From NCBI RefSeq assembly GCF_015476235.1, contig NZ_CP064338.1:3596001-3660000 (forward strand): a DNA stretch of 64,000 nucleotides, in the 5' to 3' direction. The translations under genes and the position numbers were made by a program. Shown one piece after another: positions 8,208 through 25,585 of the stretch; positions within the stretch are counted from its first letter, which is position 1; each line of letters opens with the position of its first letter. Source of the stretch: Caldimonas thermodepolymerans. GTDB lineage: Bacteria > Pseudomonadota > Gammaproteobacteria > Burkholderiales > Burkholderiaceae_C. The notes below the pieces were generated by a model, which searched no databases, had not been told where the DNA came from, and worked only from the letters and a program-made list of their open reading frames with translations.

Positions 8208-9254
8208 TCAGGCGGCCTGCGCCTGCGGCGCACGCAGCTGCTGCAGCGGCTGCGCGTCCACCCAGTCGTCGACGGAGAAGTCGTGCTGCAGGATGCCCCA
8301 GCGCAGCAGGAAGTCCTTGAAGTGGCGCACGGCCTCGACCTGCTGCGGCTCGAGCGAGATGCCCAGCAGCTCGTGCACCGGGCCGTTGGAGGCACGCACC
8401 GCGTCCTCGCTGGTGCCGATCTCGTTGGCGACGAAGCGCAGCGCCTCGTCGGGATGGGTCCTGGCCCACTGGCCGGCGCGGTCGACCGCGCGCAGCAGCT
8501 CCACGACCAGGTCCGGGCGCCGCTCGGCCAGCGAGGCGTCCACGGTCAGCAGGCGCGGCGTGCCGTTGTTGATGCGGATCTTCGCGTCGGGGTGGTGGCC
8601 GAACTCGACCAGCTGCTGCGCGCCGATCAGGTTGGCGACCACGATGCCCTCGGCGCCCTTGACGAAGATCGCGTCGGCCTCGCCCTGCACCAGCGCCTGC
8701 ACCTCGCGGAAGTACGGGTGGCGGCGCGGCAGGCCGAACAGGCTGGGCTCGCCGCGGAACTGGATCACCGATTCGGTGATCGGCAGGTCCACCAGCGTCA
8801 CGTCGCCGGTGCCCAGCCCGACCAGCGACAGCCCGGACTCGGCGCCCTTGAGCGCGGTGGCGCGGTGGAAGTCGATCAGGTCGTTGACGCGGCGCGGGAT
8901 GCCGATGCGCTTGCCCCTGAGCTGCCCGGCGCTCTCCAGCCCTCGGCCCGGCAGCGTGATCAGCGCCTGGAACTCGTCGGTCCAGGTGATCGCGACCAGC
9001 CGCGTGCGCCGACCTTCGGAGCGCGCCCAGATCGGCGGGATGTTGCCGCCCTGGCGGAAGGACCATTCGAGGTGGTGGTCGAAGTGGCTCTCGCGCACCT
9101 CGCGCAGCGGCGAGTCGATGATGGACTCCACCGCGATGCCCTGGCGGGCGAAGGCCTCGGCCAGCCAGCCTTGCCGCGCCGCGATGCCGAGCGGCGACGG
9201 CACGGGGCAGCGCGTGTACCAGACCTTGTCGGGTTGGGGCAGTCGTGCGTTCAT
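8208..9254 (-). CDS. DszB-like sulfinate desulfinase candidate (SsuA/THI5 fold)
   Basis: 348 residues with no signal peptide, so cytoplasmic, unlike periplasmic binding proteins of the same fold. It resembles DszB, the 2'-hydroxybiphenyl-2-sulfinate desulfinase that releases sulfite in the final step of the 4S pathway. The N-terminal RCPVPSPL matches the DszB nucleophile region NCPVPNAL, and HF-N8-R.GG.IPP matches the DszB His60-Arg70 stretch. This gives Cys16, His57 and Arg67 with the same ten-residue His-Arg spacing as DszB. GKRIGIP and later WARTHPDEA are further shared features. It is the last gene of a leftward arm with two flavoenzymes and a binding protein. Alternative: an SsuA-like binding protein or a desulfinase for another sulfinate. 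Substrate inferred only as an organosulfinate. Confidence 0.75.
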   Translation of the reverse strand: MNARLPQPDKVWYTRCPVPSPLGIAARQGWLAEAFARQGIAVESIIDSPLREVRESHFDHHLEWSFRQGGNIPPIWARSEGRRTRLVAITWTDEFQALITLPGRGLESAGQLRGKRIGIPRRVNDLIDFHRATALKGAESGLSLVGLGTGDVTLVDLPITESVIQFRGEPSLFGLPRRHPYFREVQALVQGEADAIFVKGAEGIVVANLIGAQQLVEFGHHPDAKIRINNGTPRLLTVDASLAERRPDLVVELLRAVDRAGQWARTHPDEALRFVANEIGTSEDAVRASNGPVHELLGISLEPQQVEAVRHFKDFLLRWGILQHDFSVDDWVDAQPLQQLRAPQAQAA

Positions 9255-9304: not shown

Positions 9305-10933
9305 TCACGCGTCCGCGGCGAGCCAGACGTCGGCCAGGTTGCCGGCCGTGCCGTCGGCGCCCACGGTGTGGTTGCGCACGCGCCGGTCGGCGACGGTGAA
9401 GTTCTGCTGCGCCAGCAGCGTGATGTCGGGCAGGTCGCGCGCGATGTGGCGCTGGAACTCGACGATCAGCGCGCGGCGCTTGGCGGGATCGGGCTCGGCC
9501 GAGGCGGCTTCGAGCAGGCGGTCCACCTCGGGGTTCTGGTAGCCCGAGCCGTTGGAGAACGGCAGGCCGCGCTTGAAGTTCTTCGACCAGTACAGGCGCT
9601 GGATGCCCACCGTCGGGTCGAAGGTGTTGCTCATCACGCTGACGTGCAGGTCGAAGTCGCGCTGCGTGTAGATGCGCCGCACGTAGCTCGCGAAGTCCTG
9701 CGAGGTGATGCGCAGCTCGATGCCGATGCGCCCCAACGCCTGCTTGAGGTAGTCCGCGATGCGCTGGCCGAACTCGTTGGGGATCGGCGTGGCCTGCAGC
9801 ACCAGGCGCTTGTTCGGCCCGGCCTTGCCGAGCGGCAGGCCCGCCTCGTCGAGCAGGCGCGCCGCGGCCTTGAGGTCGAACGGCAGCACCGGCAGGTCGG
9901 GCTCGTAGAAGCGCGACAGCGAGGGGTGCACCGGCCCCGGGATCACCTGGCCCTGCCCGTACCAGGCCACCTTGAGCATGTGCGCGCGGTCGACCGCATG
10001 GGCGATGGCCTGGCGCACGCGCAGGTCCTGCAGCACCGGGTTCTCGAGGTTGAACTCGATGCGGTAGACGTTGTTGATGTACTCGTAGCCGCGCGTCTCG
10101 AACACCAGGTTGGGCCGGGCCTTGAGGCGCTCGACCTCCGACAGCGGCACCGGCGACGCAGGCGCGAGCAGCACCTCGCCGTTCTCGATCGCGGCCACGC
10201 GCGCGGCGGCATCCGGGATGAAGCGCGCGATCAGCCGGTCGATGTAGGGCTTGTCGCCGTCCCAGTAGTGCGGGTTGCGCTCGTAGAGGACGTGGCTGCC
10301 GCGCACCCATTCCTTGAAGATGAACGGGCCCGTGCCGACGGGCTTGTTGTTGTACGGGTTGGTGTCGGCCTTGCCGTCGCCGTACAGGTGCCTGGGCACG
10401 ATGGGCGACTCGGAGGCCGCCAGCGCGGTGATGAGGTACGGCACCGGCTGGCTGAGCCTGAGCACCACCGTGTGCGCATCGGGCGTGCGGATCTCGGCGA
10501 CGCGCGAGAAGGTCGCGCGCCCGCGCGGGTGGAACTCCTTGAGCAGCTGGATCGAGTGCGCGACGTCGGCCGAGGTGAAGGGCTTGCCGTCGTGCCAGCG
10601 CACGCCCTGGCGCAGCTTGAAGGTGTAGGTCAGGCCGTCGGGGCTGATGGTCCAGGCGGTGGCCAGCTGCGGCTGCGGGTTGAGCTGGAAGTCGTAGGTC
10701 AGCAGCCCTTCGACCACCTTGCCCGACACCAGCACCGAGGCGCCGGCCGAGTGCGCGATGGTGGTCAGCACCGGCGGCTCGGGGAACACCAGGTAGGTCA
10801 GCGTGCCGCCGCGGCGCGGCGTTTCCCGGGTGGCTTGCGCGAGGCCGGCCACCGGCAGCGCGGCGCCGGCCAGGCCCGCGGCGCCCCATTGCAGCAGCTC
10901 GCGGCGGGAAGAATCGAAGCGATGTTGGCCCAT
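9305..10933 (-). CDS. Dipeptide/oligopeptide-type ABC transporter solute-binding protein (family 5)
   Basis: 542 residues. A twin-arginine leader (SSRRELLQWGAAG) followed by a hydrophobic stretch predicts folded export by Tat. The mature part is a classical DppA/OppA-family SBP_bac_5 protein: GGTLTYLVFPEPPVL at the start, then TWTISPDGLTYTFKLRQGVRWHDG-type sequence, NKPVGTGPFIFKEW, and a C-terminal QNPEVDRLLEAA segment. It should capture the substrate for the permease/ATPase genes on the opposite arm (13654-17614). The start at 10933 is chosen because it sits directly before the RR motif. In this setting the ligand is more likely an organosulfur compound than a peptide; that is inference from neighbours. 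Confidence 0.88.
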   Translation of the reverse strand: MGQHRFDSSRRELLQWGAAGLAGAALPVAGLAQATRETPRRGGTLTYLVFPEPPVLTTIAHSAGASVLVSGKVVEGLLTYDFQLNPQPQLATAWTISPDGLTYTFKLRQGVRWHDGKPFTSADVAHSIQLLKEFHPRGRATFSRVAEIRTPDAHTVVLRLSQPVPYLITALAASESPIVPRHLYGDGKADTNPYNNKPVGTGPFIFKEWVRGSHVLYERNPHYWDGDKPYIDRLIARFIPDAAARVAAIENGEVLLAPASPVPLSEVERLKARPNLVFETRGYEYINNVYRIEFNLENPVLQDLRVRQAIAHAVDRAHMLKVAWYGQGQVIPGPVHPSLSRFYEPDLPVLPFDLKAAARLLDEAGLPLGKAGPNKRLVLQATPIPNEFGQRIADYLKQALGRIGIELRITSQDFASYVRRIYTQRDFDLHVSVMSNTFDPTVGIQRLYWSKNFKRGLPFSNGSGYQNPEVDRLLEAASAEPDPAKRRALIVEFQRHIARDLPDITLLAQQNFTVADRRVRNHTVGADGTAGNLADVWLAADA

Positions 10934-10980: not shown

Positions 10981-12219
10981 TCAGGCGGCGCGCGCGGCGG
11001 TCGGGGCGTCGGCAGCGGCACGCTCCAGGGCGCGGCGGCCGGCCAGGGCACGCAGCAGGCTGTTGGACGGTGCATGGATGTGCCCGCACAGCACGTTGCG
11101 CAGGTGGCGCTCGAGCGGGTTGCGGCGCGCCAGGCCATGGTTGCCGGCCAGTTCCAGCGCCAGCCGCGTGGCCTGCACCGCGTTGTCGATCACGGTGTGC
11201 TTGACGACGCCGGCCAGCTGCGGGTCGACCGGCTCGCCGCCAGCCAGGCTCTGGTCGCAGGCGCGTGCATGGGCGCGCAGCAGCAGCGCGTTGGCAGCCA
11301 GCGCCACCTCGATCTGGCCCACCGCCTCCTGCACCGTCGGCAGCGAGGCGAGGTTGGCCCCGCCCAGCGCGGCCGGGCGGCGCTCCTGCAGGAAGCCGAG
11401 CAGCCAGTCGCGCGCGGCGCGCGCCGCGCCGTCGTAGACGGTGGCCACGAGCAGGAAGTACCACGCGTTGCCCTGCACGTCGCGCTGCAGGCCCAGCCGC
11501 GCCGGGTGCAGGCCGACGGCGTGCTCGAGCGGCACCGCCACGTCCTCGAGCACCACGTCGTGGCTCGCGGTGGCGCGCATGCCGAGCTGGTTCCAGGTCG
11601 GCACCACGCGCACGCCGGGCGCGTCGCGCGGCACGAGGAAGCTGCCCAGGCGCGGTTCGTCCTCGTCGGTGACCGCCAGCACCAGGATGTAGTCCAGCAG
11701 CGGCACGCCGGTGACGTACAGCTTGTGCCCGGACAGCCGCCACTGCCCGCCGGCGCGCCGCGCGACGGTCTTCGGCAGGCCGCCGTTGGACGGCGAGCCG
11801 AGCTCGGGCTCGACCTGCGCCGAGTTGATCAGGCCACGGCCCTGCACCGCCTCGCGCGCGACGCGCTCGGCCAGCGCGCGCGGCCAGTCGCCGTGCTCGC
11901 CGCGCGCCAGCGAGCGCGCGATCGCGGCGTGCTGGCCGAGCTGCATCGACAGGATCAGCGCGACGGACGGGTCGCCCTGCGCGATCGCGCCCACCACCGC
12001 CTGCGCGGCTTCCAGCCCCAGGCCCCAGCCGCCCAGCGCCTGCGGCACGGTCAGGGTGAGCAGCCCGGCGCGGCGCAGCGCCTCGAACTGCGGTGCGGGC
12101 GCCTCGCCGCTGGCGTCGTGCCGTTCGGCCAGCGCGGCGAAGTCCTGCGCGAGCTGCTGCGCGCGATGCACCAGCTCGGTCTGCGCGAGCTGGGACGGAG
12201 CGACATCGGCCTGGCTCAT
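10981..12219 (-). CDS. Acyl-CoA-dehydrogenase-fold flavoenzyme, probable sulfur-compound monooxygenase component
   Basis: 412 residues with the full acyl-CoA dehydrogenase architecture: helical N-terminal domain (LRRAGLLTLTVPQALGG), beta domain (WRLSGHKLYVTGVPLLDY; WNQLGMRATASHDVVLEDV) and C-terminal helical domain with a GNHGLARRNPLERHLRN segment. DszC and SfnB, which use FMNH2 to oxygenate sulfur or sulfones rather than dehydrogenate CoA esters, share this fold. Clustering with an LLM monooxygenase and a DszB-like protein favours such a role. It lies 13 bp downstream of the monooxygenase gene in the same operon. A true acyl-CoA dehydrogenase is the alternative, but no CoA-metabolism genes are near. 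Confidence 0.8.
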   Translation of the reverse strand: MSQADVAPSQLAQTELVHRAQQLAQDFAALAERHDASGEAPAPQFEALRRAGLLTLTVPQALGGWGLGLEAAQAVVGAIAQGDPSVALILSMQLGQHAAIARSLARGEHGDWPRALAERVAREAVQGRGLINSAQVEPELGSPSNGGLPKTVARRAGGQWRLSGHKLYVTGVPLLDYILVLAVTDEDEPRLGSFLVPRDAPGVRVVPTWNQLGMRATASHDVVLEDVAVPLEHAVGLHPARLGLQRDVQGNAWYFLLVATVYDGAARAARDWLLGFLQERRPAALGGANLASLPTVQEAVGQIEVALAANALLLRAHARACDQSLAGGEPVDPQLAGVVKHTVIDNAVQATRLALELAGNHGLARRNPLERHLRNVLCGHIHAPSNSLLRALAGRRALERAAADAPTAARAA

Positions 12220-12232
12220 GGGATGCTCCGCC

Positions 12233-13417
12233 TCACAGCCGCAGGCCGGCCTGCTTCATCAGCGGCAGGATGCGGTCGCCGAAGAATTCCAGGTCGGGCT
12301 TGAAGTCGAAGAAGCTCAGCTGCAGGCCGTCGACGCCGGCACGCTTGAGCTGGATGAACTGCTCGACCACCTGCTCGGGCGTGCCGACCACCTCGATGTT
12401 GCCGCCGACGGCACGGCGTGCCGGCGCGTCCTTGCCCTCGCGGCCCTTCCACGCGTGCGCGTCGCTGTCGAAGCTGTGGAAGCCGCGCGGCGTGCGGTTG
12501 TCCGCATGCGCGACGATGGCGTCGTAGTACTGGCGCGTCTCCTTCTCGGTCTCGCGGCTGATCACCATCGGGTTGAGCAGCGTGCGCACCTCGCGGCCGA
12601 TGTCGCGCGCGGCGCGCTTGACGCGCGCGGTGTGCGGCGGGAGCGCCTCGATCGCGCCCTGGAAGTCCGAGCGGCCCGGGCTGGTGATGAACACCAGGTC
12701 GGAGTAGCGCGCGGCGAACGAGATGCCCGCATCCGAGCCGGTCGCATTGACCAGCAGCGGACGGCCGTAGCGCGGCTTGGGCGTCACGAAGCCGCCGTGC
12801 ATCTTCCACGACGAGATGCCCTCGAACGAGTAGTTGTCGTCCGCGGTCCACAGCTTCTGCACCACCTCGATGAACTCGGAGGCGAGCGTGTAGCGGTGGT
12901 CGTGCTCGATGCGCGGCCAGCCGAACATCTCGTGCTCGACCGCGCGGTGGCCGGTGACGATGTTGATGCCCCAGCGCCCGCCGCAGATGTGGTCCAGCGT
13001 CGCGCCCCACTTGGCCAGGTGCAGCGGGTGCAGCGGCCCGTAGAGCACGTGGATCGTCGAGATCAGGTGGATGCGCGAGGTGATCGCGGTCAGCGACGCG
13101 GTGGTCATGAACGAGTCCAGCGCGTTGCCGTCGAACACGCCGCCATAGCCGCCCTTGGGCAGCCACTGCGACAGCGCGAACACCAGGTTGAAGCCGAGCG
13201 ACTCGGCCTTGAGCACGAGGTCGCGGTTGTACTCGAAGCGCCAGTCTGTCGTGCGCGGCAGCGTGGAGGCACTCCAGCCGCCGGCCTGGATGGGCAGGAA
13301 CAGGCCGAGCAGGAGCGGCTCCTTCAGGGCCTGCGCGTAGGGACTGTCGGGGAACTCGGCAGGGGACGGGAACCGGTCGACGCCGACCAGTTCGCCGGGG
13401 CGATGGGTGAGGATCAT
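12233..13417 (-). CDS. LLM-class FMN-dependent monooxygenase (SfnG/DszA-like)
   Basis: 394 residues of the bacterial-luciferase-like TIM-barrel family. The pattern TDWRFEYNRDLVLKAESLGF, DHICGGRWGINIVTG, EHDHRYTLASEF, then TPKPRYGRP and a C-terminal GTPEQVVEQFIQLKRAGVDG closely follows the dimethylsulfone monooxygenase SfnG and related DszA/SsuD enzymes. These take reduced FMN from a separate reductase and cleave C-S bonds, yielding a sulfinate or aldehyde plus sulfite. It is the first gene of the leftward arm, transcribed from the 236-bp divergent region. No flavin reductase is encoded nearby. Substrate (sulfone versus sulfonate) cannot be fixed from sequence. Confidence 0.87.
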   Translation of the reverse strand: MILTHRPGELVGVDRFPSPAEFPDSPYAQALKEPLLLGLFLPIQAGGWSASTLPRTTDWRFEYNRDLVLKAESLGFNLVFALSQWLPKGGYGGVFDGNALDSFMTTASLTAITSRIHLISTIHVLYGPLHPLHLAKWGATLDHICGGRWGINIVTGHRAVEHEMFGWPRIEHDHRYTLASEFIEVVQKLWTADDNYSFEGISSWKMHGGFVTPKPRYGRPLLVNATGSDAGISFAARYSDLVFITSPGRSDFQGAIEALPPHTARVKRAARDIGREVRTLLNPMVISRETEKETRQYYDAIVAHADNRTPRGFHSFDSDAHAWKGREGKDAPARRAVGGNIEVVGTPEQVVEQFIQLKRAGVDGLQLSFFDFKPDLEFFGDRILPLMKQAGLRL

Positions 13418-13518
13418 GGCTGGGTGGGCAGGACGACGCTGCTTGCAATGACGATTCGGAAGCCCGCAACGGTACCCATCAACCGCCCCATCCCGAAGCC
13501 CGAAATCCGCATATCGAC

Positions 13519-13535
13519 ATGAGGCCGGGCCTCAT
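13519..13535. promoter_or_regulatory. Inverted repeat in the divergent sulfur-cluster promoter
   Basis: ATGAGGC-CGG-GCCTCAT is a perfect 7+3+7 palindrome about 100 bp upstream of the leftward monooxygenase gene. It is a plausible operator for a dimeric regulator. The octamer GCATATCG lies just before it (13509-13516). Confidence 0.45.
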
Positions 13536-13543
13536 ACGCAAAT

Positions 13544-13554
13544 GCGAAATTCGC
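13544..13554. promoter_or_regulatory. Second short palindrome, GCGAA-A-TTCGC
   Basis: A perfect 5+1+5 palindrome nine bases beyond the previous one, in the same 236-bp divergent region. Short enough to be chance; listed because three palindromes cluster here. Confidence 0.3.
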
Positions 13555-13574
13555 GCTTGGAAAACGCCGCCCCG

Positions 13575-13608
13575 CGATGAACCATAGGCGCCCTTGTGTC
13601 GTTCATCG
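13575..13608. promoter_or_regulatory. Third inverted repeat, CGATGAAC-N18-GTTCATCG
   Basis: Perfect 8-bp arms (13575-13582 and 13601-13608) separated by 18 bp, ending 46 bp before the permease start at 13654. The centre-to-centre spacing suits two helical turns and a dimeric or tetrameric regulator such as a LysR protein. Confidence 0.4.
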
Positions 13609-13653
13609 GGCCGCCCCGCCGCATCGCCGGCAACGCGGCGGCTGCGTCGTCTC

Positions 13654-14643
13654 ATGCGTTCTCTGCACCGGGTTGCTTCCGTCCTTCGCCGCACGCTGCT
13701 GCTGGCGCTGCCCACCATGCTCGGCGTGGTGGTGCTCAGCTTCCTGCTGCTGCAGCTCGCGCCCGGCGACGCGGCCGACGTGCTGGCCGGCGAATCGGGC
13801 GCAGCCACCGAGGAGACGGTGGCTGCGCTGCGCGAGCGCTTTGGCCTGAATGCACCATTGCTGGTGCAACTCAAGCAGTACCTGTTGAATCTTGCGCAGT
13901 TCAGCCTCGGCGATTCGCCGCGCTACGGCATGCCGGTGGCCGACCTGATCGCGCAGCGCCTGCCCGGCACGCTGCTGCTGATGGGCGTGGCGCTGGCCAT
14001 CGCGCTGTCGCTCGGCCTGCTGCTCGGCGCGGTGATGGCCACGTACGTGGGCCGCTGGCCGGACCGCGTGCTGTCGGTGCTGGCGCTGGTGTTCTATTCG
14101 GTGCCGAGCTTCTGGATCGGGCTGATGCTGATCGTGTGCTTCTCGATCCAGCTCGGCTGGCTGCCCAGCGGCGGCGCAGAGACCATCGGCGCCGGCCTCG
14201 CGGGCTGGGACGCGGTGGTCGACCGCGTGCGCCACATGGTGCTGCCGGCGCTGTCGCTGGCGCTGTTCTTCGTCGCGATCTATGCGCGCCTGACGCGCGC
14301 GGCGATGCTGGAGGTGCGCTCGCAGGACTTCGTGCGCACCGCCGCGGCCAAGGGCCTCGCGCCGTGGCGCATCACCGTGCACCACGTGCTGCGCAACGCC
14401 CTGCTGCCGGTCACGACCATGGCCGGCGTGCACCTGGCCAACATCCTCGGCGGCGCGGTGGTGGTCGAGACGGTCTACAGCTGGCCCGGCCTCGGGCGCC
14501 TGGCCTTCGAGGCCGTGATGGGCCGCGACTTCAACGTGCTGCTGGGCGTGCTGGTGCTGTCCTCGCTGCTGGTCATCGTGGCCAACATGCTGGTGGACCT
14601 GCTGCATGCCTGGCTGGACCCGCGCATCGACGCCGCGCATTGA
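13654..14643 (+). CDS. ABC transporter permease, DppB-like
   Basis: 329 residues with six predicted membrane helices and the DppB/OppB signature: GVVVLSFLLLQLAPGD near the N-terminus, a large first periplasmic loop (GLNAPLLVQLKQYL; FSLGDSPRYG) and the EAA loop AAKGLAPWRITVHHVLRNALLPV that contacts the ATPases. It forms the transmembrane channel with the next gene product. It opens the rightward arm, divergent from the monooxygenase operon that contains the matching binding protein. ATG 13654 is preferred; an in-frame TTG at 13594 is possible but would add a basic, atypical leader. Confidence 0.9.
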   Translation: MRSLHRVASVLRRTLLLALPTMLGVVVLSFLLLQLAPGDAADVLAGESGAATEETVAALRERFGLNAPLLVQLKQYLLNLAQFSLGDSPRYGMPVADLIAQRLPGTLLLMGVALAIALSLGLLLGAVMATYVGRWPDRVLSVLALVFYSVPSFWIGLMLIVCFSIQLGWLPSGGAETIGAGLAGWDAVVDRVRHMVLPALSLALFFVAIYARLTRAAMLEVRSQDFVRTAAAKGLAPWRITVHHVLRNALLPVTTMAGVHLANILGGAVVVETVYSWPGLGRLAFEAVMGRDFNVLLGVLVLSSLLVIVANMLVDLLHAWLDPRIDAAH

Positions 14644-14659
14644 CTCCCTGCCACCGACC

Positions 14660-15652
14660 ATGAGCTCCACCCCCACCGCAATCCGCGTCGCCGGCGCCGC
14701 TGCACGGGCGCCGGATGCCCCCGCCGTGCCGGCCGAGGCCGCGCCCGCCTGGCCCAACGTGCACGCGCCCGATGCGGCGCGCGCCCGCACCGACGAGGTC
14801 GCGCAGCCGACCAACGCGCGCCGGGCGCTGCGCGCGCTGCTGCGCAACCCCACCGCGATGGCCGGGCTGGTGATCCTCGCGCTGATGGCGCTGCCGGCGC
14901 TGGCCGCGCCCTGGCTCTACCCCGAGGACCCGCTCAGCATGGTAGACGCGCCCTTCATCCGCCCGTTCACGCAGCCCGGGTACCTCCTCGGCACCGACTC
15001 GATGGGCCGCGACGTCGCCGCCGGCATCGCGCACGGCGCGCGCGTGTCGCTGCTGGTGGGCATCAGCGCGACGCTGGTCGGCCTGGGGCTGGGCATCGCG
15101 GTCGGCGCGCCGGCCGGCTACTTCGGCGGCTGGGTCGACGAGGCGCTGCAGCGGCTGGTGATCCTGTTCCAGGCGATCCCCAACTTCATCCTGCTGATCG
15201 TGATCGTCGCGATCGCGCAGCCCTCGCTGCCGGTCATCACGCTGGCGATCGGGCTGGTCACCTGGCCGACCGTCGCGCGCCTGGTGCGCACCGAGTTCCG
15301 CGCGCTGCGCCACAAGGAGTTCGTGCTCGCGGCGCGCAGCCTGGGCTACGGGCACCTGCGCATCATCCTGCGCGAGATCCTGCCCAATGCGCTGCCGCCG
15401 CTGATCGTCTCGGCCTCGGTGATGGTGGCCACCGCGATCCTGATGGAATCGGGCCTGGCCTTCATGGGCATGGGCGACCCCAACGTGGTCAGCTGGGGCA
15501 GCATGATCGGCGCGGGGCGCGAGCAGCTGCGCACCGCGGCCTACCTGACGATGGCGCCGGGCCTGGCGATCGTGTTCACGGTGCTGGCGCTGAACCTGCT
15601 CGGCGACGGGCTCAATGACGCGCTCAACCCGCGTCTGTCGCGGGAGCGCTGA
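14660..15652 (+). CDS. ABC transporter permease, DppC-like
   Basis: 330 residues. An unusually long, Ala/Pro-rich cytoplasmic leader of about 60 residues precedes the first helix (RNPTAMAGLVILALMAL). The DppC hallmarks follow: PFTQPGYLLGTDSMGRDV, GAPAGYFGGWVDE and the EAA loop RSLGYGHLRIILREILPNALPP, with five to six membrane helices. It pairs with the DppB-like protein. The start at 14660 lies 17 bp after the preceding stop; an upstream in-frame ATG at 14606 lies inside the previous gene and is less likely. Substrate inferred from neighbours as an organosulfur compound. Confidence 0.9.
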   Translation: MSSTPTAIRVAGAAARAPDAPAVPAEAAPAWPNVHAPDAARARTDEVAQPTNARRALRALLRNPTAMAGLVILALMALPALAAPWLYPEDPLSMVDAPFIRPFTQPGYLLGTDSMGRDVAAGIAHGARVSLLVGISATLVGLGLGIAVGAPAGYFGGWVDEALQRLVILFQAIPNFILLIVIVAIAQPSLPVITLAIGLVTWPTVARLVRTEFRALRHKEFVLAARSLGYGHLRIILREILPNALPPLIVSASVMVATAILMESGLAFMGMGDPNVVSWGSMIGAGREQLRTAAYLTMAPGLAIVFTVLALNLLGDGLNDALNPRLSRER

Positions 15653-15656
15653 CGCC

Positions 15657-16663
<1,007 letters not shown>

Positions 16664-16667
<4 letters not shown>

Positions 16668-17614
16668 CCGCCCCGCTGCTTGCCGCCACCGACGTCCAGG
16701 TCCACTTCAAGCTGCCGCAGGGCACGCTGCGCGCGGTCGACGGCGTGTCGCTCACGCTCGCGCGCGGCGAGACCGTCGGGCTGGTCGGCGAATCCGGCTG
16801 CGGCAAGTCCACGCTGGGCCGCGCACTGCTGCGCCTGGAACCGCTCACCGGCGGGCGCGTGACGGTCGACGGCGAGGACATCTCGCGCCTGGGCCACCGC
16901 GCGCTGCACCCGTACCGGCGCCGCCTGCAGATGGTGTTCCAGGATCCGTTCGCCTCGCTCAACCCGCGCCAGACCATCGGCGACATCCTCGAGACGCCGC
17001 TGAAGGTGCACGGCCTGCGCGACGCGCGCCAGCGCCGCGAGCGCGTCGCGCAGCTGGTCGACCGCGTGGGCCTGCCGCGCAGCGCGCTGGGGCGCTACCC
17101 GCACGAGTTCTCCGGCGGGCAGCGCCAGCGCATCGGCATCGCGCGCGCGCTGGTGCTGCAGCCGGACGTGATCGTCTGCGACGAGCCGGTGTCGGCGCTG
17201 GACCTGTCGATCCAGGCGCAGATCCTCAACCTGCTGGCCGCGACCAAGGCCGAGTTGGGGCTGTCGTACCTGTTCATCTCGCACGACCTGTCGGTGGTGC
17301 AGTACTTCGCCGACCGCGTCATCGTGATGTACCTCGGGCGCGTCGTCGAGAGCGCCGACAGCCGCCGGATCTGGGCCCGGCCGCGCCACCCGTACACGCA
17401 GGCGCTGCTCGCCGCGGTGCCCGGCGCCCACCGGGGCCGCGAGGCCGCGCCGCTGCCGGGCGAGCTGCCCAGCCCGCTGGCGCCGCCCCCGGGATGCCGC
17501 TTCCACCCCCGCTGCCCGCGGGCCACGGCCCTGTGCCGCCAGCAGGAGCCGGTCCTGCAATCCGTTTCAGCAACCTCGGGCGACCACGCCGTCGCCTGCC
17601 ATCACCCCGACTGA
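16664..17614 (+). CDS. ABC transporter ATP-binding protein, DppF-like
   Basis: 316 residues, second ATPase of the importer. Walker [11 protein letters not shown]-loop [13 protein letters not shown], signature [15 protein letters not shown] and Walker [13 protein letters not shown] are followed by the switch His in ISHD. The C-terminal oligopeptide-type extension [11 protein letters not shown] contains the conserved cysteines. It completes a five-component family-5 importer whose binding protein is encoded on the opposite arm (9305-10933). The start overlaps the preceding stop by four bases. Confidence 0.92.
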
Positions 17615-17629
17615 GGGGCCACGACCACC

Positions 17630-18673
17630 ATGAGCATCACCTACCGCTACCTGGGCCGCAGCGCCCTCAAAGTCTCCAACCTCGCCCTGGGCACGATGAT
17701 GTTCGGCGGCCCCACGCCGGAAGCCGAGGCGCGCGAGATCATCGCCCGCGCCAAGTCGCAGGGCGTCAACTTCATCGACACCGCCGACGTCTACCAGAAG
17801 GGCGAGACCGAGCGCGTCGTCGGCCGCGCGATCAAGCAGGACCGCGACGACTGGGTGCTGGCCACCAAGTTCGGCAACCCGCTGGGCGAAGGCGTCAACC
17901 GCGGCGGCCAGTCGCGCAAGTGGATCATCGAGGCGGTGAACAACAGCCTGCGCCGGCTCGACACCGACTACATCGACCTGCTGTACTTCCACCGCGCCGA
18001 CTTCGACGCCCCGCTGGGCGAGGCGGTGCGCGCCGTCGGCGACCTGATCCGCGCCGGCAAGGTGCGCTACTTCGGCGTCTCCAACTTCCGCGGCTGGCGC
18101 ATCGCGGAAGTCGCGCATCTGGCCGACGCCGAAGGCATCGACCGCCCGATCGCCAGCCAGCCCCTCTACAACCTGGTCAACCGCACCGCCGAGGCCGAGC
18201 AGCTGCCCGCGGCCGCCGCCTACGGCCTGGGCGTGGTGTCCTACAGCCCGCTGGCGCGCGGGGTGCTGACCGCCAAGTACGAATCGCTGGACCATGCCGA
18301 GCCGGGCTCGCGGGCCGCGCGCAAGGACAAGCGCCTGCTCGAGACCGAATGGCGTGCCGAGTCGATCGAGATCGCGAAGAAGATCCGCGACTACGTGGCC
18401 GCACGCGACATCGACCCGGTGGACTTCGCGGTGGGCTGGGTGCTGAACAACCGGCTGGTCACCGCGACGCTGGCCGGCCCGCGCACGCTGGCGCAGTGGG
18501 AAGGCTACGTGAAGGCGCTCGAGTACCGCTTCACGCCGGAAGACGAGGCGCTGGTCGACAGCCTCGTCGCGCCGGGCCACCCGTCCACCCCCGGCTTCAC
18601 CGATCCAGGCCATCCGGTCGAAGGGCGCGTGCCCTGCGTCGCGCCGGCCGGCAACGCGCAGGTGTCCGCATGA
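17630..18673 (+). CDS. Aldo/keto reductase
   Basis: 347 residues of the NADPH-dependent AKR family, a TIM barrel. Asp50, Tyr55, Lys80 and His121 fit the catalytic tetrad (FIDTADVY, ATKFG, YFHRAD). KVRYFGVSNF and the late cofactor-binding segment TATLAGPRTLAQWEG are also typical. It probably reduces an aldehyde or ketone released by oxygenolytic C-S cleavage, which is inference from the operon. It lies 15 bp after the ATPase gene, and its stop overlaps the next start (ATGA at 18670-18673). It may equally act on the imported substrate itself. Confidence 0.9.
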   Translation: MSITYRYLGRSALKVSNLALGTMMFGGPTPEAEAREIIARAKSQGVNFIDTADVYQKGETERVVGRAIKQDRDDWVLATKFGNPLGEGVNRGGQSRKWIIEAVNNSLRRLDTDYIDLLYFHRADFDAPLGEAVRAVGDLIRAGKVRYFGVSNFRGWRIAEVAHLADAEGIDRPIASQPLYNLVNRTAEAEQLPAAAAYGLGVVSYSPLARGVLTAKYESLDHAEPGSRAARKDKRLLETEWRAESIEIAKKIRDYVAARDIDPVDFAVGWVLNNRLVTATLAGPRTLAQWEGYVKALEYRFTPEDEALVDSLVAPGHPSTPGFTDPGHPVEGRVPCVAPAGNAQVSA

Positions 18674-19893
18674 GCGCCGTCGCCGCCTTTGCCTCGCCGC
18701 GCCCGCGCACGCGCGAGGAGATCCTGGCCGGCCTGCCGGCGCTGGCAGCGGCCATTGCCGAGGGCGCCTCCGAGCGCGAGAAGCAGCACGTGCTGCCGTT
18801 CGAGCAGTTCAAGCTGGTGCGCGCCTCGGGGCTGGGCACGCTGCGCATCGGCCGCGAACAGGGCGGCCCGGGCGGCAGCATCGAGGACGTGATCCACGCC
18901 GTCACCACGCTGGCGGCGGCAGACTCCAACGTCGCCCACGCACTGCGCACGCACTTCAACACCTGCGAGCTGCTGCGCCTGGGTCCGCCCGAGCCGCACC
19001 GCCTGCGCCACATCCGGCTCATCCTCGAGGGCGCGCTGTTCGGCGGCGCGTTCACCGAGCAGGGCACGGCGCGCGCCGGGCAGAACACCACGCGCCTGGT
19101 GCGCGTGGGCAACGGCTGGCGCCTGCGCGGGCGCAAGTACTACACCACCGGCACCGCGTTCGCCGACTACGCCTCGGTGTTCGCCTTCGACGACGAGGAG
19201 CGCGGCGTCAACGCGGTGATCCCGGTCACGCGCGAGGGCGTGGAGATCCTCGACGACTGGGACGGCATGGGCCAGAACCTCACCGCCAGCAGCTCGATGG
19301 TGCTCAACGACGTGGAGGTGTTCGAGGACGAGATCGCCCCCGGCGAGCGCGACGACCTGGCCGGCCGGCACGCCTCGGCGCTGCGCCAGCTGATCCTGGT
19401 CGCCACCGCCGCGGGCATCGTGCGCAACGTGGTGTCCGATGCGGTGAACTACGTGCGCAGGCACGGCCGCCCGGCCATGCACAGCCCGGCCGAGACCGCG
19501 CGAGAGGACCACTTCGTGCAGCTGGTGATCGGCGAGCTGGGCGCGGCCAGCCATGCGATCGACGTGCTGGTGGCCGACGCCGCGCGCCAGCTGGACCGCA
19601 GCGCCGAGGCCATCCTGCGCCAGGCGCCCGATGCCGACGACGTGGTGCTGCAGGGCGCGCTCACCACCGCGCGCACGCAGCTGGTGGTCAGCCGCCTGGC
19701 GCTGGCCGCGGCCGAGCGCATGTTCGAGGCCGGCGGCGCCTCGGCCACCTCGCGCAAGCACAACTTCGACCGCCACTGGCGCAACCTGCGCACCATCTTC
19801 AGCCACAACCCGCTGCAGCACAAGGCGCGCATCCTGGGCGACCACGCGCTCAACGGGACGAAGACGCACCTGGTCGAAGGGCGCGTGTTCTGA
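18670..19893 (+). CDS. SfnB/DszC-like flavin-dependent monooxygenase (acyl-CoA-dehydrogenase fold)
   Basis: 407 residues. The N-terminal helical domain (FKLVRASGLGTLRIGREQGGPG) and the beta domain with GGAFTEQGTARAG, WRLRGRKYYTTGTAFADY and DDWDGMGQNLTASSSMVLNDVEV match the SfnB/DszC branch, in which 'GRKxYxTGxxFA' and 'DWxGxGQxxTASG' are characteristic. These enzymes use FMNH2 and O2 to oxidise sulfides or sulfones. The C-terminal domain has MFEAGGASATSRKHNFDRHWRN, typical of the group. It is translationally coupled to the aldo/keto reductase and ends the rightward arm before a terminator. The cluster therefore encodes two such paralogues, suggesting consecutive oxidations. Confidence 0.85.
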   Translation: MSAVAAFASPRPRTREEILAGLPALAAAIAEGASEREKQHVLPFEQFKLVRASGLGTLRIGREQGGPGGSIEDVIHAVTTLAAADSNVAHALRTHFNTCELLRLGPPEPHRLRHIRLILEGALFGGAFTEQGTARAGQNTTRLVRVGNGWRLRGRKYYTTGTAFADYASVFAFDDEERGVNAVIPVTREGVEILDDWDGMGQNLTASSSMVLNDVEVFEDEIAPGERDDLAGRHASALRQLILVATAAGIVRNVVSDAVNYVRRHGRPAMHSPAETAREDHFVQLVIGELGAASHAIDVLVADAARQLDRSAEAILRQAPDADDVVLQGALTTARTQLVVSRLALAAAERMFEAGGASATSRKHNFDRHWRNLRTIFSHNPLQHKARILGDHALNGTKTHLVEGRVF

Positions 19894-19965: not shown

Positions 19966-20619
19966 TCAGTGCGGAAACGCCAGCCGCCGCTCCATGAAGC
20001 GCTGCACGCGCTCGAACAGCAGGCTCAGCACCCAGTAGATGCCGGCCGCCCCCAGGTACAGCGGGAACGGTTGGAAGGTAGTGGAGATCAGTTCCTTGGT
20101 CGCGAGCATCAGCTCGGTCACCGCGATCACCGAGACCAGCGAGGTGTCCTTGATCAGGCTGATCAGGCTGTTGCTGAGGCTGGGCACGGCCATGCGCAGC
20201 GCCTGCGGCGCGACGACGTGGCGCAGCGTCTGGATGCGCGTCAGGCCCAGGCTCGTGCCGGCCATCCACTGGCCCTGCGGCACGCCCAGCACCGCACCGC
20301 GCAGGCTCTCGGACAGGTACGCCGCGACGTTGAGCGTCAGCGCCAGGATGCCGGCGGTCACCGGCGTGAACTCGATGCCCACGCTGGGCAGCCCGTAGTA
20401 GACGAGGAACACCTGCACCAGCAGCGGCGTGCCGCGCATCGCGCTGACGTAGACCGCGGCCGCCTGCGCCAGCACCGGCACCTGCAGCACGCGCAGCAGC
20501 GCGACGATGCTGGCCAGCGCCAGCCCCAGCACCATGGCCGAGACGGCGAACAGCAGCGTGTAGCCGGTGGCCTTGAGCATCACCGGCGCGGCGAATTCGA
20601 ACAGCGCGATCAGGTCCAT
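19966..20619 (-). CDS. Polar amino acid (cystine-type) ABC transporter permease
   Basis: 217 residues with about five membrane helices. Family marks are MRGTPLLVQVFLVYYGLP and the EAA loop GLTRIQTLRHVVAPQALRMAVPSLSNSLISLIKDTSLVSVIAVTEL-like region, matching the HisM/GlnP/TcyL group. The C-terminal LISTTFQPFPLYLGAAGIYW resembles cystine permeases. It forms a homodimeric channel for the binding protein encoded just upstream. No ATPase gene of the set is present in the window. The start MDLIAL at 20619 is chosen over an ATG at 20661 that lies in the terminator hairpin region. Substrate assignment is tentative but agrees with the adjacent sulfur cluster. Confidence 0.85.
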   Translation of the reverse strand: MDLIALFEFAAPVMLKATGYTLLFAVSAMVLGLALASIVALLRVLQVPVLAQAAAVYVSAMRGTPLLVQVFLVYYGLPSVGIEFTPVTAGILALTLNVAAYLSESLRGAVLGVPQGQWMAGTSLGLTRIQTLRHVVAPQALRMAVPSLSNSLISLIKDTSLVSVIAVTELMLATKELISTTFQPFPLYLGAAGIYWVLSLLFERVQRFMERRLAFPH

Positions 20620-20644
20620 GAGGGGTGCATCCTCCCGTCCAACG

Positions 20645-20672
20645 AAAAAAGCCCTCTGCACGGGCAGAGGGC
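20645..20672 (-). terminator. Rho-independent terminator between binding-protein and permease genes
   Basis: On the minus strand GCCCTCTGC and GCAGAGGGC form a perfect 9-bp stem with a 4-base loop (20651-20672), followed by six T residues (A at 20645-20650). It sits after the binding-protein gene (ends 20701) and before the permease start at 20619, so it should reduce permease expression relative to the binding protein. Confidence 0.88.
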
Positions 20673-20700
20673 CGTCACGCCCCGGTGGCCGGCGGGCCTC

Positions 20701-21501
20701 TTATTGGGCCACAGGCGGCTTGCTCACGTCACGCCCGAACCACTTGTTCGAGATCTGCGCGAACGTGCCGTCGGCCTTGAGCGACTCCAGCGCCGCGTCG
20801 ATGGCCTGCTTGAACTTCGGGTTGCCCTTGCGGAACGGGATCGCGTTGGTCTCGACCTTGCCGATCGGCGCGCCGGCCTTGACCGGCAGGCGGCTCTTCT
20901 GCGCCAGGTAGGGGATCAGCAGGCTGTCGTTGAGCGCGACGTCCACGCGGCCGGTGACCAGGTCCTGCAGGTACTCCGGCGCGCCGGGGTAGACCTTGAC
21001 CGTCGCGCCAGGGATCGAGCGCGCCAGGTCCGCGTAGTTGCTGCCCTGGCTGACGCCGATGGTCAGGCCCTTGAGGTCGGCCTCGGAGCGGATCGGGCGC
21101 GTCTCGTTGGCGCGCACGATCAGCTGCGGGCTGGAGACCACGTAGGGCGCGCTGAAGTCGAACACCTGCTGGCGCTGCGGCGTGGCCGCCACCTGGTTGA
21201 CGATCACGTCGTACTTGCCGGCCTGCAGGCCGGCCAGGATGCCGCTCCACTCGGTGGTGGTGAACTCGGCCTTGACGCCCAGCTTGCCCGCGATCGCCTC
21301 GGCGATCTCGACGTCGAAGCCGGTCAGCCGGCCCTGCTCGTCACGGAAGTTGAACGGCGGGTAGGTGCCCTCCACCGCGACGCGCAGCGTGCCACGCTGC
21401 TGGACCTCGTCGAGCAGGTCGGCCGCGTGGGCCACAGGCGCCGCGGCCAGGAAGGCGAGCATGAGGCCGGCCGAGGCCAGCCAGGTCTTGAGCAATCCCA
21501 T
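20701..21501 (-). CDS. Amino acid (cystine-type) ABC transporter solute-binding protein
   Basis: 266 residues. A Sec signal peptide occupies about residues 1-27 (hydrophobic core GLMLAFLAAAPVAHA, cleavage near AHA-A). The mature protein is an SBP_bac_3 family member: GTLRVAVEGTYPPFNF, LTGFDVEIAEAIA, YDVIVNQVAATPQR and SAPYVVSSPQLIV. TYPPF and FDVE form the canonical ligand-binding start. It resembles FliY/TcyJ cystine-binding proteins, which fits the permease type and sulfur neighbourhood. Transcribed leftward from an AT-rich promoter region near 21509-21560. Other polar amino acids cannot be excluded. Confidence 0.87.
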   Translation of the reverse strand: MGLLKTWLASAGLMLAFLAAAPVAHAADLLDEVQQRGTLRVAVEGTYPPFNFRDEQGRLTGFDVEIAEAIAGKLGVKAEFTTTEWSGILAGLQAGKYDVIVNQVAATPQRQQVFDFSAPYVVSSPQLIVRANETRPIRSEADLKGLTIGVSQGSNYADLARSIPGATVKVYPGAPEYLQDLVTGRVDVALNDSLLIPYLAQKSRLPVKAGAPIGKVETNAIPFRKGNPKFKQAIDAALESLKADGTFAQISNKWFGRDVSKPPVAQ

Positions 21502-21606: not shown

Positions 21607-23232
21607 TCACTCGCAGCGGAAGCTGGCCGCGTCGTTCGGATCGCCTTGGCCGTCGTACACCGCCTGCTTCGGGTAGGCGCACAACGGCCGGGTCAGCGTC
21701 ACCTGACCGCCCGCGACCCGCGAGGCGATGAAGTCGTCGGGCGCCTGGCCGGTTTCGACCCAGCGGTCCATCGCGGCCAGCAGGTCCCGCTGCGGCGCGA
21801 CCGGCACCGCCGTGCCATCCCCGCGCAGCGTCGTCGCGCCGCTGCCGCCGCTGCAATGCCCCATGCCGGGGACGAGGAACAGACGGTAGAACGCATCGAC
21901 CGCTTCCTGCGATCCCTGCGCGGTGCGCACGCCCTCGTAATAGTTGATGCTGTCGAAGGCGCTGACCACCGGATCGCTCCAGCCGTGGTAGACGAGCAGC
22001 TTGCCGCCGGCGGCCTTGAAGGCGGACAGGTCGGTGCTGGTCTGGTCCACCAGCGGCGAGATCTTCGCCCGGGCATAGCTGACATCGCGGTCGAAGTCGA
22101 AGGTCCACCAGTTCCAGTGCGGATCCTCGAAGACCCAGTACCGCCAGAAGTCGGCGCGCACCGGCTCGCCGGCCCCCATGTAGCTCGACCAGCCGGCCTC
22201 GCTGCCCACCGGCCAGCCGGGGTACAGCTGTTCGCCCGTGCGCGGGTTGCGCGGGCCCTGGTAGATGAGCTGGGCCGCACGGACCTGGTCGGCCGTCAGG
22301 CAGTCGGGCGCCTCGGCACCGGTGCATTGCAGCGACGTGACATCGAAGTGCGCGCTGGTGCAGGCCCGCGGGTCGTTGATGACGCCGTCGGTGACACCGT
22401 CGAGCGCGTCGCAGGCCGCGACCGCGCGCTCGGTGATCAGGCGCAGCTTCTGCGGCGTCACGTACTGCGTGAGGTTGTCGTTCTGCGGCCGGTTGGCGCG
22501 GAAGCGCCACATGAACTCGATGTTCAGCGCGGTCCGGTTGTTGCCCGGCGCGCCGGCGATGATCCCGTCGAAGTCCTCGGGGTAGCGCTGCGCCTCGGCG
22601 AATCCCTGGTGCCCGCCGGTCGAGCAGCCCAGGTAGTAGGCGCGCTGCGCCGCCTGCCCGCGTTTGGCCTCGAGCAATGCCTTGCCGGCCACGGTGATGG
22701 CATGGATCGAGCGGCTTCCCCAGTCGACGATGCGCTCGGGATAGGTCACGCCCCACAGCATGTCTTCGGTCTGGTGCCCGGTGTCGCCGCCCATCACCGC
22801 GTAGCCCTGGCGCATCGCGTAGGCCATGTCGCCATAGCTGAGCGCGGGACTGTAGCCACCGTTGCCGGTGGTCACGAGCTTGCCGTTCCAGGCCTCGCCT
22901 TCGGGCACCCACAGCTCGAAATGGATCTCGGATTGCGACGTCGGCGTCGCGACGGCTTCGATGCGGCAGAAGGCCGGCAGGTCGGCCAGCTGCTGCATCG
23001 TGCCGGGCGGGTTGTAGGTGCCGGCCTCGACCGGCGTCACGGCCTTGATCGTGGCCTGCTCGAGCTGCACGTCGGCAAAGGCCTCCAACGTGCAGGCGCG
23101 CGCTGCCGCCACGGGCGGCTCGTCCGCGGGGCTGCCCCCGCCTCCCCCTCCGCCGCCGCAAGCGGCCAGCAGCAGGGCCATCCAGGCGGGTGTGCAGCGC
23201 GCCAGGCGATGGTGCATGGTCTTCATCTTCAT
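21607..23232 (-). CDS. Tannase/feruloyl esterase-family lipoprotein
   Basis: 541 residues. A lipobox (LAAC, Cys25) followed by a run of glycines predicts an exported lipid-anchored enzyme. The body is a tannase/feruloyl esterase fold: nucleophile motif GCSTGG with Cys203-Ser204, acid Asp420 in GWSDPVVS and His459-Cys460 in PGMGHCSGG. This is the 'CS-D-HC' arrangement in which the two cysteines bond next to the catalytic Ser and His. Such enzymes hydrolyse gallate, ferulate or other aromatic esters outside the cell. It is the last gene of a leftward set with another lipoprotein hydrolase and a Bug-type binding protein. Exact substrate unknown. Confidence 0.9.
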   Translation of the reverse strand: MKMKTMHHRLARCTPAWMALLLAACGGGGGGGGSPADEPPVAAARACTLEAFADVQLEQATIKAVTPVEAGTYNPPGTMQQLADLPAFCRIEAVATPTSQSEIHFELWVPEGEAWNGKLVTTGNGGYSPALSYGDMAYAMRQGYAVMGGDTGHQTEDMLWGVTYPERIVDWGSRSIHAITVAGKALLEAKRGQAAQRAYYLGCSTGGHQGFAEAQRYPEDFDGIIAGAPGNNRTALNIEFMWRFRANRPQNDNLTQYVTPQKLRLITERAVAACDALDGVTDGVINDPRACTSAHFDVTSLQCTGAEAPDCLTADQVRAAQLIYQGPRNPRTGEQLYPGWPVGSEAGWSSYMGAGEPVRADFWRYWVFEDPHWNWWTFDFDRDVSYARAKISPLVDQTSTDLSAFKAAGGKLLVYHGWSDPVVSAFDSINYYEGVRTAQGSQEAVDAFYRLFLVPGMGHCSGGSGATTLRGDGTAVPVAPQRDLLAAMDRWVETGQAPDDFIASRVAGGQVTLTRPLCAYPKQAVYDGQGDPNDAASFRCE

Positions 23233-23309
23233 GGTCGGTCTCCTTCACGTCTCCAGGTCGGTCCTGCCGGCACGGCCCGTCACCCCGGACCGCACCGCGC
23301 AGGCGTGCG

Positions 23310-25433: not shown

Positions 25434-25585
25434 GGCTGTCTCCTTTCTTCCGGTGGAAGTCGGGGCGCGCGCAGGCAAAGCGCCGCCCCAGGGGCGGTTG
25501 CGCCGCCTCTGTCTGGTCGTCGCTGGATGACCGGGCTGCCGCGATGCAGCGCGCAGGGGCGCCGCATCACGCATCCGTCAGGGCG

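Follow-up and report, generated by a model that had tools for sequence, protein, structure and literature searches.

Does the leftward gene at positions 8208 to 9254 of the window, the whole 64,000-nucleotide stretch of the Caldimonas thermodepolymerans genome analysed here, encode the binding protein of an ABC importer, or an enzyme that removes sulfur from an organic compound? The minus-strand frame is open for 348 codons plus a stop, the protein starts with MNARLPQPDKVWYTRCPVP, and a GGAG motif lies nine bases 5' of the start codon. The 348-residue product (P0001), in which Cys16 is the sole cysteine, is a candidate DszB-like sulfinate desulfinase by sequence, fold and tree. It is probable, at roughly 0.77 in our analysis, that the protein is a cytoplasmic, cofactor-free, cysteine-dependent desulfinase like DszB and that it frees sulfite as the last step of an oxygenase route. 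This interpretation is supported by the sequence, the fold, the tree, the conservation of residues and the absence of an identifiable signal peptide, and the gene neighborhood adds independent support.

A sequence-only reading had placed Cys16, His57 and Arg67 at the positions of the catalytic residues Cys27, His60 and Arg70 of DszB. The motifs on which it relied, RCPVP, HF and R.GG.IPP, are all found in the translation, and the correspondence holds both in the phmmer alignment to 2DE2 and in a 21-row alignment, A1. On the minus strand, the codon of Cys16 (9207..9209) aligns with that of the proton donor Cys27, His57 (9084..9086) with His60, Arg67 (9054..9056) with Arg70 of the RXGG motif, and Gly69-Gly70 (9045..9050) with Gly72-Gly73; residues R67-Q-G69-G70 form the RXGG motif of the candidate. 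The spacing between His and Arg is ten in both proteins, as had been claimed, whereas the Cys-His spacing differs (41 in the candidate versus 33 in DszB). Thr14 (9213..9215, minus strand), rather than serine, occupies the hydroxyl position of Ser25, which is described as the partner of His60 in DszB (alignment A1; PMC6100217). The same source describes Cys27 as the proton donor, C27S as inactive, the activity of H60Q as down about 17-fold, R70 as part of a conserved RXGG motif with insoluble mutants, and Ser25 and Gly73 as completing the modelled active site (PMC6100217). By analogy with DszB, Arg67 and Gly70 would hold the sulfinate, His57, tuned by Thr14, would stabilise the thiolate, and Cys16 would donate a proton to the sulfur-bearing carbon, giving R-H and SO2/sulfite from R-SO2(-). 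The pocket of the candidate differs from that of the HBPS desulfinase. Mutations of Tyr63 and Gln65 are reported to alter DszB activity (PMC6100217), and these two columns hold His60 and Leu62 in the candidate; HBPS is therefore improbable as substrate, and a different one is expected. The candidate is not the HBPS desulfinase itself (DszB sensu stricto).

The nearest relative of the protein is DszB and not SsuA, a conclusion on which the PDB search, the fold comparison and the tree agree. A phmmer search of 177,635 distinct PDB sequences, reporting E up to 1, returned two matches at E<=1 over residues 9-334, and both are DszB (2de2, 1.5e-13; C27S entries, 4.8e-12). Identity between the candidate and DszB is 24-28%. 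A DszB-free profile built from 85 family members matched DszB in the PDB at 2.2e-23, and the next match was E. coli SsuA at 0.099. This profile is the one relied on; the profile from A1 gives DszB an E of 4.5e-88, but A1 includes DszB and the value is hence dependent. By phmmer and the DszB-free profile alike, the comparison with the DszB and SsuA families that had been suggested as a check places the candidate closer to DszB. In the reverse direction, the DszB sequence matched 81 of 72,556 plasmid records. Among the matches listed (60 of the 81 records), one is a true dszB, that of Mycobacterium pMyong1 (65.5%), and the remaining ones have 25.6-30.0% identity to DszB, many coinciding in record and position with matches of the candidate itself. 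In a tree of 55 rows, DszB and the DszB-like family lie on one side and ten binding proteins lie opposite, with support of 99/95 and with long branches among the binding proteins. The position of DszB inside its own side is poorly resolved (82/41), and it joins L029/L168 weakly.

The predicted fold points the same way. An AlphaFold2 model from an 85-row alignment has a pLDDT of 89.9 and a pTM of 0.89, residues 161-180 being the least certain inner part. Among the Foldseek matches listed, 2de2 is first at 1.0e-19, and SsuA is found at 4.9e-14. A structural comparison with DszB had been called for by the sequence-only reading; among the VIA-align matches listed, substrate-bound DszB 2de3 is the best (Z 30.6, 311 residues, 3.3 A, 25%), followed by 2de2 (Z 29.3) and by SsuA at Z 25.3 and 24.3. 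The model aligns with 2DE3 across residues 9-343, and residues 56-59, His57 among them, are predicted to form a short helix. In DszB, loop 55-62 is described as turning helical on substrate binding, which moves His60 in (PMC6100217).

The fold houses several enzyme types, and the weaker VIA-align matches listed include Thi5 (Z 17), the 4,5-dihydroxyphthalate decarboxylase 9JP7 (Z 14.6) and MqnD (Z 14.5). The candidate could accordingly be a same-fold enzyme whose substrate is not a sulfinate, such as a decarboxylase (compare 9JP7) or another C-X lyase that takes the product of a flavin monooxygenase; proton donation from cysteine to carbon could serve decarboxylation too. This alternative is unlikely. 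All three enzymes are far weaker matches than DszB, and the genes beside the candidate encode relatives of the sulfur oxygenases SfnG, SfnB and TdsC.

That the candidate is instead an ordinary sulfonate- or sulfone-binding protein of an ABC importer, of the SsuA/TauA type, is very unlikely. The annotation of its relatives would suggest so; as had been foreseen, the deposited records mostly read "ABC transporter substrate-binding protein". The candidate also exceeds the Pfam NMT1 cut-off (PF09084, NMT1/THI5-like; 36.4 bits versus 20.5, residues 185-271), a match that shows the shared fold superfamily only, and SsuA structures are matched at Z 22-25. However, the SsuA family model of NCBIfam, TIGR01728, gives 66 bits against a cut-off of 163.5, over residues 185-337 only, the importer encoded next door has a family 5 binding protein of its own, and the tree sets binding proteins apart from DszB and the DszB-like family. 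The Cys, His and Arg are moreover wholly absent from 7/7 correctly read binding proteins, seven of nine rows being counted and L002 and L003, read in the wrong frame, being left out.

The N terminus also does not look like that of an exported protein. The sequence-only reading had noted the lack of a signal peptide, and none is recognisable: no more than 15 residues lie ahead of Cys16, and the in-frame sequence 5' of the ATG is markedly hydrophilic. That upstream stretch together with the first 15 residues peaks at a 10-residue hydropathy of -0.66, while the leaders of four binding proteins from the same genome reach 2.08-2.62 in the same measure. These four alone serve as the control, six binding proteins from other genomes having been trimmed by the same start rule as the family rows. 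Across 130 family rows (the DszB piece left out), 10-29 residues (median 13) lie ahead of the Cys column and hydropathy there peaks at 1.05, none with a hydrophobic core, in a simple measure with starts picked nearest that of the candidate, which favours short N termini. The candidate is thus predicted to be cytoplasmic from its N-terminal hydropathy. A plain SsuA/TauA binding protein is rejected on the lack of an identifiable leader, the score below the SsuA cut-off, the residue set and the tree.

Conservation of the catalytic residues bears on whether the candidate is active. Nine columns are invariant in A1 (C16, H57, R67, G69, G70, L188, G191, D194 and W263), an invariance that is partly a matter of row choice, rows L010 (near other rows), L018, L021 (partial), L023 and L030:7227, both with Ser for Cys, L028:4225, in which the His is missing, and L030:13051 having been left out. 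The counts from relatives fetched by whole-protein similarity, with no Cys filter, are more trustworthy. This set has 44 rows, of which 43 span the catalytic site (L154, an incomplete piece, was left out). The Cys, His and Arg trio is present in 35 of the 43 relatives and the Arg in all 43; Cys is replaced by Ser in seven, one of which also lacks the His, and one further relative has the Cys without the His. In the pattern-scan rows the Cys is present in 84/85, but the pattern demands Cys, so these rows are evidence for His and Arg only. The loss of Cys (7/43), or of His with Cys kept (1/43), in some relatives indicates that the family scaffold can serve without catalysis.

It is very unlikely, all the same, that the C. 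thermodepolymerans protein is a pseudoenzyme, descended from DszB but now without catalysis and with a role in sulfinate binding or regulation. The Cys-to-Ser relatives show that such proteins may exist, and inactive DszB C27S is reported to have been crystallised with bound substrate (PMC6100217). The candidate nevertheless retains Cys16, His57, Arg67, Thr14 and Gly70, and equivalents of all five are retained in L010, L011 and L025, its closest relatives in the search without a Cys filter (73-76% identical). Because DszB C27S is inactive yet was crystallised with substrate, the Ser copies may be natural non-catalytic partners or sensors. A Cys copy adjoins a Ser copy in 5/5 genomes with full-length members of the f16 family (L115, L135, L117, L118 and L133), and a Ser copy lies near a Cys copy in three further genomes (L162 with L015, L030 and L072). 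On a plasmid of Sphingobium sp. TomTYG65 (L028, 4225-11068), three DszB-like genes lie amid monooxygenase, ssu and arylsulfatase genes; they were deposited as "monooxygenase", one being called soxB, and one copy lacks the His. Finally, the suicide enzyme Thi5 carries a multi-cysteine motif, and a Thi5-like suicide enzyme is rejected, since that motif is impossible with a single Cys.

The reading as a desulfinase gains from the genes that surround the candidate. It belongs to a leftward run that starts with a luciferase-like FMN monooxygenase (LLM) related to the dimethylsulfone monooxygenase SfnG (12233..13417, minus strand, 394 aa; SfnG TIGR04021, 205 bits versus a cut-off of 382.95), continues with ACD1, a flavoenzyme of the acyl-CoA-dehydrogenase fold related to SfnB and DszC (10981..12219, minus strand, 412 aa; SfnB TIGR04022, 137 bits versus a cut-off of 430.9; DszC NF043015, 81 bits), and proceeds through a family 5 (peptide/nickel type) periplasmic binding protein with an RR-type leader (9305..10933, minus strand, 542 aa; SBP_bac_5, 310.9 bits; TAT_signal below threshold; start set by inspection) to the DszB-like gene. 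A divergent rightward run on the plus strand encodes OppB-type (13594..14643) and OppC-type (14606..15652) permeases and an OppD-type ATPase (15615..16667), the starts of all three being uncertain, then an OppF-type ATPase (16664..17614), an aldo-keto reductase (17630..18673; Pfam PF00248, 221 bits) and ACD2, a second flavoenzyme of the acyl-CoA-dehydrogenase fold and a candidate S-monooxygenase related to SfnB, TdsC and DszC (18670..19893; SfnB, 288 bits versus a cut-off of 430.9; DszC, 126.5 bits). When the divergent intergenic region that separates the runs (13418..13593) was scanned for promoters and terminators, neither was found, nor was a sigma-70-like site. Just past the end of ACD2, on the opposite strand, lie an apparent amino-acid type ABC permease and a binding protein (19966-21501, by eye), followed, also on the minus strand, by two large proteins with lipoprotein-like leaders (21607-25574), the first resembling tannase by eye; no link to sulfur was seen in these two.

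The oxygenases are relatives and not members of SfnG and SfnB, since the LLM, ACD1 and ACD2 all fall below the NCBIfam cut-offs. The best PDB matches of the LLM are SfnG (8t0u, 4.9e-43) and, in a near tie, RutA (2.1e-42), with DszA at 4.9e-23; the neighbour is thus SfnG-like rather than the DszA-type monooxygenase of a dszABC operon. ACD2 matches TdsC best (5xb8, 9.2e-41), then a probable monooxygenase (8cda), MsuC (6u76, 3.1e-32) and DszC (6e-30). The role of ACD1 as an S-oxygenase is the least sure, since numerous genuine acyl-CoA dehydrogenases are among its matches and the E-values for TdsC and DszC are no better than about 5e-16 to 1e-15; its best PDB match is 5z8t/5gj7, and its identity to DszC is 28%. 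Within the genome, the two best SfnB-like genes (of nine) and the best SfnG-like gene (of two) sit in the cluster with the DszB-like gene.

From this gene content, a pathway may be proposed. The Opp-type importer would take up an organosulfur compound by way of a periplasmic binding protein of its own, and the SfnB/DszC-like flavoenzymes would oxidise the sulfur of that compound to a sulfone. Cleavage of the first C-S bond by the SfnG-like monooxygenase would then yield a sulfinate plus a carbonyl compound, the latter presumably removed by the aldo-keto reductase, and the DszB-like enzyme would cut the last C-S bond and release sulfite for assimilation. A tension remains within this scheme. 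The proton-transfer mechanism of DszB suits an sp2 carbon, whereas cleavage of the SfnG type usually gives alkyl sulfinates.

The arrangement is conserved among the closest relatives. These were taken as the best 79 of at least 585 confirmed stretches from a pattern scan, and a gene was counted when it scored at least 150 bits within at most 10 kb on each side. At least one flavin oxygenase lies near the DszB-like gene in 79/79 of these loci. The binding protein was counted in 78 of the 79, the LLM in 53, ACD1 in 62, ACD2 in 60 and the aldo-keto reductase in 64; for the importer, the counts were 67 for OppB, 69 for OppC, 64 for OppD and 56 for OppF, with OppB and OppC together in 67. The LLM occurs together with an ACD in 48/79 loci, and in 30/79 the LLM, the DszB-like gene and ACD1 are direct neighbours among the scored genes, which is the dszA-dszB-dszC order seen in pMyong1. 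As a control, 12 stretches of 20 kb covering 13 other places with NMT1-family genes in the same genome contained an oxygenase in 0/12 at 150 bits and, with a profile of greater sensitivity, in 2/12 (an LLM in one, an ACD in the other). In Variovorax paradoxus VAI-C (L025, 1-24984), genes for a sulfurtransferase, a cysteine dioxygenase and a cystathionine beta-lyase come after the cluster, which itself also encodes three ABC binding proteins of the family 5 type and an amidase; these genes hint at an amino-acid-derived or amide substrate.

The oxygenase neighborhood is not universal in the family. In a wider set of 20 loci, some from close and some from distant members, an oxygenase was found in 8/20 at 150 bits. 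The more sensitive profile raised this to 14/20 (LLM 13/20, ACD 6/20), the LLM profile being built in part on two genes of L150 and L151, loci that are themselves counted. By that profile, neither an LLM nor an ACD was found at six of the 20 (L159, L160, L161, L163, L167 and L168). At the two loci examined from f16, a family of the same class and perhaps Pseudomonas, the members lie instead beside genes related to those of SsuBC-type transporters and SsuD-type monooxygenases.

The sequence-only reading had presented the candidate as a single odd protein in a proteobacterium, a framing that proves too narrow; it belongs to a large proteobacterial family that often lies within a conserved gene cluster. 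A scan of genome contigs with a Cys-containing pattern gave at least 595 stretches, of which at least 585 were confirmed, and the best 79 loci belong to Burkholderiales and Rhizobiales, with the cluster seen in Comamonadaceae and Rhizobiales. At 1e-10, matches were found in 13/299 genomes of the same GTDB family, own genome included, and the three congeneric genomes also sampled had none. The phylum sample gave matches at 1e-10 in 18/397 genomes; eight of these, own genome included, have full-length matches of at least 375 bits and ten have weak ones only, below 106 bits. Matches to the candidate occur in 92 of the 72,556 plasmid records, mostly of Sinorhizobium and Rhizobium and including pSymA of S. 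meliloti; the copies on pSymA make the desulfinase idea testable in a standard laboratory strain. Among the papers listed in a search of open-license PMC articles, none deals with the DszB-like family or its cluster.

The cluster probably imports a sulfur compound and strips its sulfur, and it is common to root-nodule and other soil bacteria. A larger proposal is offered tentatively, as a possibility we hold to be less probable than its opposite: the cluster may be a proteobacterial equivalent of the 4S pathway, widespread but so far unrecognised, in which one particular organosulfur compound from soil or plants is imported by the Opp-type system and stripped of its sulfur by a dedicated oxygenase-desulfinase set. 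It might then also supply the missing desulfinase of Gram-negative bacteria that use sulfones, Sinorhizobium KT55 and a sulfolane degrader among them, with the Cys-to-Ser paralogues beside active copies acting as non-catalytic partner subunits. Sinorhizobium KT55 is described as a Gram-negative bacterium that desulfurises benzothiophene (PMC3868597) and is said to use dimethyl sulfone (PMC6630823), and a sulfolane-degrading Rhodoferax MAG is reported, in the account given in PMC6395730, to be without dszB. Desulfinase genes of Gram-negative users of benzothiophene or sulfolane could be missed where annotation calls them ABC binding proteins. In biodesulfurisation, the DszB step is described as slow and inhibited by its product (PMC12168087). 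New enzymes might be found in a large family that has the catalytic set of DszB but an altered pocket.

DszB and BdsA are already known as desulfinases of the DszB type, as is TdsB. The candidate resembles DszB (PDB 2DE2, 2DE3, 2DE4) in its Cys, His and Arg, its RXGG motif, the hydroxyl partner of its His and its fold, and differs in its low identity and in having His and Leu at Tyr63 and Gln65. Binding proteins of the SsuA/TauA type share the NMT1 fold superfamily with it; unlike the candidate, they are exported as parts of SsuBC/TauBC importers, and the ones examined lack the Cys, His and Arg set. The SfnB/SfnG system for dimethylsulfone is similar in that the LLM is nearest to SfnG, ACD2 to SfnB/TdsC, and ACD1 scores best on SfnB among the NCBIfam models. 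In the SfnB/SfnG route of Pseudomonas, the sulfinate is oxidised to a sulfonate, which is then cleaved by MsuD/SsuD; the cluster described here differs in that all three oxygenases score below the SfnG and SfnB cut-offs and in having a desulfinase candidate in place of sulfinate oxidation. As in the dsz system, DszC-like and luciferase-like monooxygenases adjoin the gene, but the monooxygenase here is SfnG-like and not DszA-like, an Opp importer and an aldo-keto reductase are present, and the hosts are Proteobacteria. By layout, the nearest system is bdsABC of Gordonia terrae C-6, which serves benzothiophene desulfurisation; the likeness is drawn from gene descriptions, which place the BdsA desulfinase gene beside genes of FMNH2-dependent and alkanesulfonate-type monooxygenases, give ABC transporter genes neighbouring locus numbers, and describe the similarity of bds to dsz as low (PMC3868597). 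As described there, that transporter is of the sulfonate/nitrate/taurine type in an actinomycetote, whereas the cluster of the candidate pairs its putative desulfinase with an importer of the Opp type.
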